Shown piece by piece: positions 1 through 26,175 of a stretch of DNA of 45,563 nt; position 1 is the stretch's first letter; every line of letters begins with the position of its first letter. The notes under the pieces were generated by a model, which saw nothing but the letters and a program-made list of their open reading frames with translations, did not search any database and had not been told where the DNA came from. The stretch covers positions 1 to 45,563 of the forward strand of contig JABMOY010000149.1 in assembly GCA_013203955.1 (NCBI GenBank), given 5' to 3'. Origin of the DNA: Rhodospirillales bacterium. GTDB taxonomy: Bacteria > Pseudomonadota > Alphaproteobacteria > Rhodospirillales > Casp-alpha2. Position numbers and translations under genes: made by a program.

Positions 1-185
1 GCTCTTACCGCACCCTTTCACCCTTGCCACGGACCGGAGCCCGTTAGGCGGTTTACTTTCTGCGGCACTTTCCCTGGGGTTGCCCCCGCCGGCCGTTAAC
101 CGGCACCGTGTTTCCATGGAGCCCGGACTTTCCTCCCCTTGTAGGTTTCCCCATAGCAAGAGGCGACCATCCGACCGTCTGGCAG
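1..185 (-). ncRNA. rnpB: RNase P RNA, type A (5' part; runs off the left edge)
   Basis: Read on the minus strand, the sequence contains the conserved RNase P core: GGGGAGGAAAGTCCGGGCTCC near position 135, GTAAACCGCC near 55, and AAGGGTGAAAGGGTGCGGTAAGAGC-type sequence at the window edge. These are the universal P4/J-region blocks of bacterial type A RNase P RNA, the catalytic RNA that matures tRNA 5' ends. Only about the first 185 nt are present; the 3' half lies outside the window. The exact 5' end is estimated by alignment from memory with the E. coli RNA and may be off by about 10 nt. Confidence 0.95.
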
Positions 186-3653: not shown

Positions 3654-3998
3654 TCAAGATTTCTCGCGGGCGACTGCTAACCGGAACTTCTTGATCTCTT
3701 CTTTCATTTCTTCTTTTTTCGAATCTTCCAATTGAAACTCGACGCCGATGCCATTGACGAAATCGCGGGCGACCTTAGCCGGAATTTTACCCACCCCTTC
3801 CATGTGAAGTTCGACAAAGGCGTCGTTGCCAAAAGACCCATCAACCAACAGCCCGGCGCCGCCGGCCGAAATATCCTGGACTATGACTTCGTGTTCATTG
3901 CCTTCTTCATCTTTGATCGTGGCGCGAAGGTTCTGGTCCACTTCATGACGAGCATGGCGGCGTCCATCAAAAGGGCTACCGCCTATCTTTTCGGCCAT
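3654..3998 (-). CDS. PilZ domain protein (c-di-GMP receptor)
   Basis: A 114-residue single-domain protein. It shows the two PilZ ligand motifs: an arginine cluster near the N-terminus (GRRHARHEV, RxxxR) and the DISAGGAGL loop (D/N-x-S-x-x-G) about residues 43-51. Both motifs needed for cyclic-di-GMP binding are present. The C-terminal helix is highly charged (KKEEMKEEIKKF). The protein is a stand-alone adaptor that could pass a c-di-GMP signal to motility, adhesion or export machinery. This matters because a probable c-di-GMP riboswitch lies elsewhere in the window (about 25.5 kb). Confidence 0.88.
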   Translation of the reverse strand: MAEKIGGSPFDGRRHARHEVDQNLRATIKDEEGNEHEVIVQDISAGGAGLLVDGSFGNDAFVELHMEGVGKIPAKVARDFVNGIGVEFQLEDSKKEEMKEEIKKFRLAVAREKS

Positions 3999-25299: not shown

Positions 25300-25487
25300 T
25301 TCGAGGGTTTTTTAGACCAAACGCCTATGTCCGCTTCCGGTCAGCCGCCCACCCACCCGACATTTTTTTCCAAAAATGTGACCCCGGTCACTTCCCGCCT
25401 ATTCCTTTTGGCCTAAAGTTGCGCTTGAGAGTCGCGGGTGGACGCTTCCCTTATTCAGCAGATGACGAAATCTGAAAACGGGCCGTC

Positions 25488-25587
25488 CGGTTTCCCTCGA
25501 AAAGGAAAACCACCGGAAACGGTGGGACGCAAAACAACCGGCCTACGGCCAAAAGCCACGGCGGCGGTGTTACCGAAAGGAGAAACG
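25488..25587 (+). promoter_or_regulatory. Probable cyclic-di-GMP-I (GEMM) riboswitch
   Basis: The 3' half matches the GEMM-I aptamer closely. A CCACCG-GAAA-CGGTGG stem with GNRA loop is directly followed by GACGCAAA, then ACCGGCCTA, then GCGGTGTTACCG. The position equivalent to G20 of the Vc2 aptamer (AAGG before the first stem) appears to be G, the c-di-GMP form. A 5' strand GTTTCCCT (25490-25497) can pair with AGGAGAAAC (25578-25586), so the closing stem would include the ribosome-binding AGGAG of the following gene. That suggests translational control, probably off when ligand is bound. Ends are approximate. Confidence 0.8.
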
Positions 25588-25589
25588 AG

Positions 25590-25748
25590 ATGTTTTATAC
25601 AATCCTGAATACGGCACTCGAATCCTGGAATTTGTGGTGCGCCATGTTCAAGTCGCTGCCTTACGGCGACCCCTATATCGCGACCCTGGCCTTGTTCGTG
25701 ATATTCGCCACAACCTCCAAATTGCTTGCCGGCGGAGAAACCACTTAG
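25590..25748 (+). CDS. Riboswitch-controlled small membrane protein, 52 residues
   Basis: ATG at 25590 is preceded by AAAGGAG with seven bases of spacing, an ideal ribosome-binding site that lies at the 3' edge of the GEMM-type riboswitch. The product starts MFYTILNTALESWNLWCAMF and has one clear hydrophobic segment about residues 29-47 (YIATLALFVIFATTSKLLA), so it is probably a single-pass inner-membrane peptide with an amphipathic, aromatic N-terminus. No family is recognised. It is the first gene of a three-gene run of tiny membrane proteins. Confidence 0.7.
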   Translation: MFYTILNTALESWNLWCAMFKSLPYGDPYIATLALFVIFATTSKLLAGGETT

Positions 25749-25790
25749 GCCGGCAAGCGGCGACAGAGACTTAAGAAAGGATACGCAGTG

Positions 25791-25925
25791 ATGATTATAG
25801 AAAACCTTGGTGAAGTCATAATGACAGCGGGATTTCTGTTGGTGATTGCGGCGATTTTCATTCCTAAGAAAAATGCCGAGGACGCCGACGAGGACACGCC
25901 CGGCATTTCGGAATTGACCGGCTAA
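25791..25925 (+). CDS. Small single-pass membrane protein, 44 residues (paralogue 1)
   Basis: AAAGGA lies about nine bases before the ATG. The product has a short N-terminus (MIIENLGEV), a hydrophobic span about residues 9-24 (VIMTAGFLLVIAAIFI), then PKKN and a strongly acidic tail (AEDADEDTPG). It is 42 bp behind the first small gene and is closely related to the third small gene at 26050-26175. Many differences between the two copies are synonymous (GAG/GAA), which argues that both are translated. Function unknown. Confidence 0.72.
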   Translation: MIIENLGEVIMTAGFLLVIAAIFIPKKNAEDADEDTPGISELTG

Positions 25926-26049
25926 GGAAGCGGTCCGCCGTTTACATCCGTTCATATGACATTCATAGGCCCCTCAAACGCCGTTAAAGGGCTCGGCCTA
26001 TTGTCGGCGCATGGAATAAAAACACGGACATTACGAAGGATACGCAGCG

Positions 26050-26175
26050 ATGATTATGGAAAACCTTGGCGGAATTCTAATGGCGGCGGGATTATTGCTG
26101 GTGGTCGCGGCGATTTTCATTCCTAAGAAAAATGCCGAAGACGCCGACGAAGACGCGCCCGACTTTTCGGAATAG
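26050..26175 (+). CDS. Small single-pass membrane protein, 41 residues (paralogue 2)
   Basis: A near copy of the 44-residue gene including its ribosome-binding region (AAGGATACGCAG). It encodes MIMENLGGILMAAGLLLVVA, then AIFIPKKNAEDADEDAPDF. The membrane span and the IFIPKKNAEDADED core are identical or conservative relative to paralogue 1, with the C-terminus shortened. The 124 bp between the copies hold a possible hairpin (AGGCCCCT...AGGGCTCGGCCT). It ends just before the convergent TcuA-like gene. Confidence 0.72.
   Translation: MIMENLGGILMAAGLLLVVAAIFIPKKNAEDADEDAPDFSE

Follow-up and report, generated by a model that had tools for sequence, protein, structure and literature searches.

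What does a c-di-GMP riboswitch control when only very small membrane proteins follow it, and which signals reach its transcript? We addressed this question at a locus in a 45,563-nt stretch of DNA from a Rhodospirillales bacterium (here called the window), which is the whole of contig C132 in a 3.1-Mb assembly of 245 contigs, 96.2% complete and 7.2% contaminated. The window begins with a bacterial class A RNase P RNA (positions 1-182, minus strand, 140.7 bits) that is truncated by the contig end. An earlier note on this DNA had read the locus as a GEMM-I-like aptamer in control of three small membrane proteins. We surveyed 317 genomes of the order, which yielded 55 c-di-GMP-I matches in 43 of them (the G036 aptamer is counted among these, although it lies below the cut-off), as well as 289 genomes drawn from the class. 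Twenty-five aptamers from outside the order were usable as a control after L208 and L217, loci cut by a contig end, had been left out (27 to 25); L214 and L215, which are below the cut-off, and six matches without loci are not included. The features of the locus are as follows.

25377-25392, plus strand: CRP-type palindrome TGTGACCCCGGTCACT, a predicted activator site whose centre lies at -41.5 relative to the predicted start
25414-25419, plus strand: predicted -10 element TAAAGT, 36 nt from the start of GTGA
25481-25497, plus strand: pyrimidine-rich anti-Shine-Dalgarno strand overlapping the first aptamer bases, predicted to pair with the Shine-Dalgarno (SD) as an extended P1
25494-25577, plus strand: c-di-GMP-I (GEMM-I) aptamer RF01051, 69 bits by cmscan, with Rfam position 13 occupied by A where C is usual
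25577-25582, plus strand: Shine-Dalgarno AAGGAG, abutting the 3' end of the aptamer
25590-25748, plus strand: ORF 1, encoding a 52-aa membrane protein (PYGDPY family) predicted to fold as a helical hairpin, with helices at 2-21 and 28-47
25791-25925, plus strand: ORF 2, a lineage-specific 44-aa single-pass peptide with an acidic tail, counted from the ATG at 25791 (45 aa from the GTG at 25788)
26050-26175, plus strand: ORF 3, a 41-aa paralogue of ORF 2

The aptamer is covered by RF01051 over the full model (positions 1-87 of 87) at 69 bits against a cut-off of 35, RF01051 is its best match in the clan, and it is the sole c-di-GMP-I match in its genome. The GNRA-capped stem, GACGCAAA, CCGGCCTA and GTTACCG, from which the earlier note had recognized it, are all found, and the covariance-model search proposed there as a check returns this match above the gathering cut-off. 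The note had also placed the end of the aptamer at the ribosome-binding site of a 52-residue frame; this is borne out, as AAGGAG adjoins the aptamer and the ATG of ORF 1 (25590) lies 12 nt past it. That the aptamer serves as the leader of ORF 1 is indicated by the SD touching it and by the ORF 1 family occupying the same position after 22 of the 55 order aptamers.

We then characterized the protein. ORF 1 exists as described, with a hydrophobic stretch (Kyte-Doolittle 19-residue maximum 1.79), and belongs to a conserved family with the motif WxxWxxLFxxlPYGDPYxA. Across 16 aligned homologues, to which the window copy is 24-54% identical, residues M1, W13, W16, F20, P24, G26, P28 and A31 are invariant. 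AlphaFold2, run with 16 sequences, predicts one helix at 2-21 and another at 28-47, joined by a turn that contains the PYGDPY motif (mean pLDDT 89.8, pTM 0.55). Searches with 16 members gave no credible match in Pfam (best E 0.026, one member) or NCBIfam (best E 0.03, one member), and a profile search of PDB sequences reached only E 7.3. The dN/dS of the window copy against eight equal-length copies is 0.22-0.82; the values for three close relatives, based on few substitutions, are ~0.9-1.9. As a gene, ORF 1 is well supported by its genomic position, since 22 of the 42 family matches sit 6-14 nt past a c-di-GMP-I match. Among the named carriers are MAGs of marine Rhodospirillales and one of a Magnetovibrio sp. 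from the same family; tblastn found nothing in plasmids. In the open-licence PMC literature we found no account of the family and no c-di-GMP riboswitch with a small membrane protein.

The 55 order aptamers show how far this pairing extends. The commonest first gene behind them is a PYGDPY member (22, with a frameshifted copy in G297), followed by a membrane protein of a 151-aa type (12, two of them shorter or cut) and flagellin (7). Six of the flagellins match PF00669, one of these below the cut-off, and the seventh, a 67-aa piece in G305, was judged by eye. Flp pilin and ParA-like ATPases follow two aptamers each, a TadE/G-like gene follows one, and the remaining nine have another gene or none, including G005, which lacks the PYGDPY ORF and has a PilZ remnant next. 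Counted from the side of the protein, the order holds 42 PYGDPY matches in 40 genomes: 22 have an aptamer, two have one that is sub-threshold and 18 have none. In one sub-threshold case (G030, 23.2 bits) the ORF stops after 19 codons and both elements are broken; in the other (G035, 28.5 bits) the SD is lost and the ORF is still open. Five of the 289 class genomes match the family, the window's own included. Among five PYGDPY loci outside the order, two, both in another order, have an aptamer directly upstream; the variant model RF03167, with a cut-off of 59, gives these two aptamers 67.7 and 57.4 bits. Because the pairing of aptamer and ORF 1 is conserved well beyond the window, the suggestion of a new c-di-GMP output is fair as a claim about a new family of outputs (22 of 55 in the order, two elsewhere), but not for a three-protein operon as a conserved unit.

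All three small ORFs of the proposed operon do exist, and the 44- and 41-residue peptides have the hydrophobic character ascribed to them (Kyte-Doolittle maxima 2.41 for ORF 2 and 2.72 for ORF 3); only ORF 1, however, is conserved, as the ORF 2/3 type occurs in two of 317 order genomes, namely the window's and G004, which has one related peptide after the cassette. ORF 2 begins 42 nt after ORF 1 and ORF 3 lies 124 nt after ORF 2. The two are 76% identical with a dN/dS of ~0.30, and from their sequences they are probably coded. Judged by this distribution, they are a lineage-specific tandem pair outside the conserved unit. PHROGs gave weak matches alone (E 0.02 and 0.043), and ArfB, an NCBIfam candidate for ORF 2, was rejected at 12.8 bits, far under its cut-off of 40.

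In four relatives (G002, G007, G008 and G020) the gene after PYGDPY encodes a PilZ protein. The earlier note had pointed to a PilZ receptor in the window, and the gene is there (3657-3998, minus strand, E 2.3e-10), but ~21.5 kb from the cassette and without likeness to the cassette-side PilZ of relatives (BLASTP, E <= 1e-3); distance and the lack of a BLASTP match rule it out as a part of the system. Another PilZ gene of the window's genome, at a different place and with its own CRP-type box, is 35-41% identical to the cassette-side PilZ. At L178 (G000:C71:2000-9322), a PilZ gene with such a box is accompanied further on by a lipoprotein-like ORF that resembles, by eye, the 151-aa family and by a glutathione-transferase-like ORF of a kind that in G008 follows the cassette; apparently the cassette has changed its position with respect to PilZ.

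Upstream of the aptamer lies an input that the earlier note had missed, a CRP-type box with a -10 element at 25377-25419. The box is a TGTGA-N6-TCAC palindrome (25377-25392), and the predicted transcription start lies near 25426. In class II CRP promoters the box is centred at -41.5. Within 250 nt upstream of order aptamers, GTGA-N6-TCAC is perfect in 39 of 55 cases and present with at most one mismatch in 49, against mononucleotide-shuffle expectations of 0.19 and 4.2. Outside the order the corresponding counts are 3 of 25 (all one genus) and 6 of 25, a difference with Fisher p-values of 8e-7 (perfect) and 1e-8 (at most one mismatch) that are inflated by the relatedness of the genomes. After dereplication at 70% identity, which kept 38 of the 49 box sites, TAnnnT stands at one offset, 36 nt from the start of GTGA, in 30 of 38; the next offset has five. 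This spacing matches class II CRP promoters and places the box at -41.5. The box also accompanies PYGDPY genes that lack an intact aptamer, being perfect in 15 of 19 and joined by the fixed -10 in 11 (these box and context tallies leave out the G193 member). From these patterns, the riboswitch transcripts of the order appear mostly to start from CRP-type promoters, and we found no description of a CRP box paired with c-di-GMP-I in this order in the open-licence PMC literature.

The pattern TGTGAYNNNNRTCACW occurs at 20 places in the window's genome, while a reversed control pattern occurs at none. It adjoins genes for Flp pilin, flagellin, FliN and a PilZ protein, a TadE/G-like (TadG-like) gene on a cpaB-bearing contig, and CheY-like regulators (labelled by eye). 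TAnnnT at the fixed offset was found in 7 of 29 strand readings of these own-genome sites, including the window site and Flp pilin. It is absent at the flagellin, TadE/G-like, FliN and PilZ sites, and a regulon comprising these genes is therefore suggested by the box itself. Candidate activators are present: HTH_Crp_2 has ten matches in the genome, nine of them over the cut-off, and the proteins at C7 and C230 carry the recognition-helix motifs RETVAR and RQTVAR, which we take to be of the CRP type that reads GTGA. By analogy, cAMP and cGMP are both possible as the activating signal, since CgrA, which binds TGTGA-N6-TCACA in Rhodospirillum centenum, is linked to cGMP (PMC4681086).

We propose that the locus is a two-input control module in which a CRP-family activator at the promoter and c-di-GMP as an OFF signal govern a small motility/attachment membrane protein, a reading to which we assign a probability of about 0.5. 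A member of the CRP/FNR superfamily bound at 25377-25392 would recruit RNA polymerase to a class II promoter, with the box centred at -41.5. The mRNA would carry the c-di-GMP-I aptamer as its leader, its 3' end touching the SD, and the pyrimidine-rich strand 5' of the aptamer could pair with the SD and so extend P1. Upon c-di-GMP binding, P1 would close, the SD would be hidden and translation of the 52-aa protein would stop. The protein itself, whose invariant core reads WxxW...F...P.G.P..A, is predicted to form a hairpin of two helices; it may belong to a box-marked motility/attachment programme, most likely as an accessory in the inner membrane to surface structures or to the c-di-GMP receptors of these. 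ORFs 2 and 3 would be lineage-specific passengers on the transcript. The aptamer, its adjacency to the SD, the conservation of the family, the geometry of box and -10 and the sharing of the box were computed; from them we infer the binding activator and its ligand (cAMP/cGMP), the OFF direction and the role of the protein.

The direction of the switch is where an alternative fares best. Because an SD-like motif lies within 14 nt past the aptamer in 50 of the 55 order aptamers, and no plus-strand terminator-like site was found between the window aptamer and ORF 1, translational control is likely from these predicted signals; a transcription-termination switch was rejected, there being no such site before ORF 1. 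TCC or CCC stands just 5' of the aptamer in 41 of 55 cases; control windows have it in 7-16 of 54-55, and aptamers from outside the order in 5 of 25. Between this strand and the SD region, the longest complement averages 4.87 in matched pairs against 4.48 +- 0.10 with permuted partners, a value reached in 0 of 300 permutations, in a test designed after one of duplex energy had come out non-significant. That earlier test of the extended P1, also against permuted partners, gave p 0.094 for all loci and p 0.26 for the PYGDPY class (class A). Vc2, a GEMM-I riboswitch, is described as a translational OFF switch in which P1 stability is key (PMC9262584). On the sequence patterns, OFF is the probable direction.

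The same module could instead be an ON switch, in which bound c-di-GMP exposes the SD, so that sessile cells produce the protein. Both signs are known among GEMM-I switches (PMC9262584), attachment would be suited by the Flp pilin and TadE/G-like targets, and the minimum free energy (MFE) fold of the unliganded window leader pairs the SD region with the full aptamer not formed; no aptamer fold combined with a sequestered SD appears in that fold. We nevertheless regard an ON switch as unlikely, as the complementarity of the 5' strand to the SD is higher in matched than in permuted pairs, fitting a closed P1 that hides the SD, the seven flagellin targets suit an OFF switch, and translational OFF is the mode described for GEMM-I Vc2 (PMC9262584).

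For the role of the protein, we compared its distribution with those of surface structures. In family f22, a cpaB match lies 0.8-1.0 kb from the PYGDPY gene in all ten family genes found, while in family f1 no tad gene is among the listed neighbour ORFs. Across genomes, CpaB is above its cut-off in 24 of 40 PYGDPY carriers and in 127 of 277 other genomes (Fisher p 0.13), and several of the 16 carriers without it are >94% complete. Flagellin_N was found in 28 of the 32 carriers tested (of 40); its absence from the other four makes a flagellum-only role less likely. Flagellin or CpaB is present in 30 of the 32, with neither in G008 and G009. We rejected a Tad-pilus-only role as our main claim, since the distribution of CpaB does not follow that of the family. 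By inference, the protein is better explained as a general accessory to the switch of surface motility than as a component dedicated to the pilus or the flagellum.

A protein that serves the Flp/Tad pilus specifically would explain the constant proximity to cpaB in f22, the order of genes in G309 (aptamer, Flp pilin, aptamer, PYGDPY gene) and the occurrence of the same box with fixed -10 at the Flp pilin of the window's genome. The 16 of 40 carriers in which CpaB above the cut-off is missing, with an association of p 0.13, make this specific role doubtful. The tandem in G309 is itself an unusual arrangement (L087, G309:C36:12433-13063, minus strand), with a Flp pilin gene and a PYGDPY gene each behind its own c-di-GMP-I aptamer.

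A further question is whether the riboswitch of the window still works. Rfam position 13 is C in 53 of the 55 order aptamers, T in one and A in the window alone, and A13-G36 in place of C13-G36 breaks one core pair. Decay of this copy, with regulation lost here and sister copies still working, would account for this substitution and for the PilZ gene that trails the cassette in four relatives being elsewhere in the window's genome under its own box. The rest of the aptamer is canonical at 69 bits, though, and the ORF, SD, box and -10 are intact, which renders decay improbable; A13 is a departure at one pair, and the family score is not failed.

It is very improbable that ORF 1, instead of encoding a working protein, is a leader peptide or a device that couples translation to the next gene. 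The PilZ gene directly next in four relatives and the G005 aptamer that runs into a PilZ remnant without the ORF would fit such a device, whereas a conserved next gene is absent in most loci read, seven residues (W13, W16, F20, P24, G26, P28 and A31) do not vary among 16 homologues, and in another family an ORF 1 family gene stands alone behind the box. The G005 arrangement (L009, G005:C115), where the PYGDPY ORF is gone between aptamer and PilZ remnant, arose either by natural deletion or through faulty assembly.

Least credible is another cyclic dinucleotide, such as cAMP-GMP, as the ligand: both aptamers of another order fit RF03167 (c-di-GMP-I-GGC) best, but the window aptamer fits RF01051 best in its clan and keeps a G at the position that we take, by our own mapping, to be Vc2 G20. 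In published work, G20 of Vc2 is described as a selectivity position (PMC9262584) and cAMP-GMP as sensed by rare GEMM-I variants (PMC7266159).

Turning to known systems, the window aptamer resembles other RF01051 riboswitches in being full-length at 69 bits, with the GNRA-capped stem and core motifs, in a 5' leader. It differs from the type in its A13-broken pair, its unnamed 52-aa target and an SD that touches the aptamer, with no separate expression platform. To our knowledge, the one precedent for a CRP-driven promoter before a c-di-GMP-I aptamer is Vibrio cholerae gbpA. There, a CRP-activated promoter is likewise followed by a c-di-GMP-I aptamer (Vc1), giving two cyclic-nucleotide inputs, but the c-di-GMP effect is reported to be independent of Vc1 (PMC4545359). 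Whereas gbpA is one gene, the pairing here is found at most aptamers of an order, with an unrelated target. The nearest studied case is CgrA of R. centenum, a Rhodospirillum by name, whose site TGTGA-N6-TCACA equals the box here (PMC4681086). In contrast to our locus, CgrA is described for cyst development, and that text does not use the term riboswitch (PMC4681086). Cd1 of Clostridioides difficile also has a c-di-GMP-I aptamer and lowers expression of motility genes (the flagellar operon); it turns OFF by transcription termination (PMC9262584), unlike the window, which has no plus-strand terminator-like site before ORF 1.

The aptamer class is thus known; new are the microprotein family as its main target and the order-wide coupling to a CRP-type box. 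We tentatively extend this to the order, with somewhat less confidence than an even wager: c-di-GMP-I riboswitches may there add a second input to CRP-class promoters, with two nucleotide signals multiplied on each transcript (cAMP/cGMP at transcription, c-di-GMP at translation), and the main output would be a new family of helical-hairpin microproteins acting at the membrane to tune the flagellum/Flp-pilus switch. Targets of c-di-GMP riboswitches are hardly described in this group of Alphaproteobacteria, which is large and mostly uncultured, and annotation pipelines are likely to miss the commonest one because it is a microprotein absent from family libraries. The pairing of a CRP-type promoter with an aptamer turns cAMP/cGMP-c-di-GMP integration, usually treated gene by gene, into one testable module, and the PYGDPY protein is short and highly conserved, so that its partner can be sought directly.

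The survey also turned up further arrangements of aptamers and small genes. Second PYGDPY copies free of an aptamer are found at L051 (G000:C100:313-447), next to a tRNA gene, and L052 (G007:C153:5512-5652), next to a tRNA-like end; perhaps these mark an integration site. A second aptamer-linked family is the membrane protein of ~151 aa, with an SYxKLACP motif and an N-terminal hydrophobic segment, which follows 12 of the 55 aptamers (L012, L016, L021-L024, L028, L126, L131, L133, L141 and L142); the one member searched, L012, has no Pfam match. At L129 (G029:C263) and L140 (G167:C68), ParA/MinD-like ATPases (Pfam AAA_31 and CbiA) come right after a c-di-GMP-I aptamer. Finally, a 54-aa ORF with an N-terminal hydrophobic stretch, unlike the PYGDPY family, follows a c-di-GMP-I aptamer at L020 (G029:C495).
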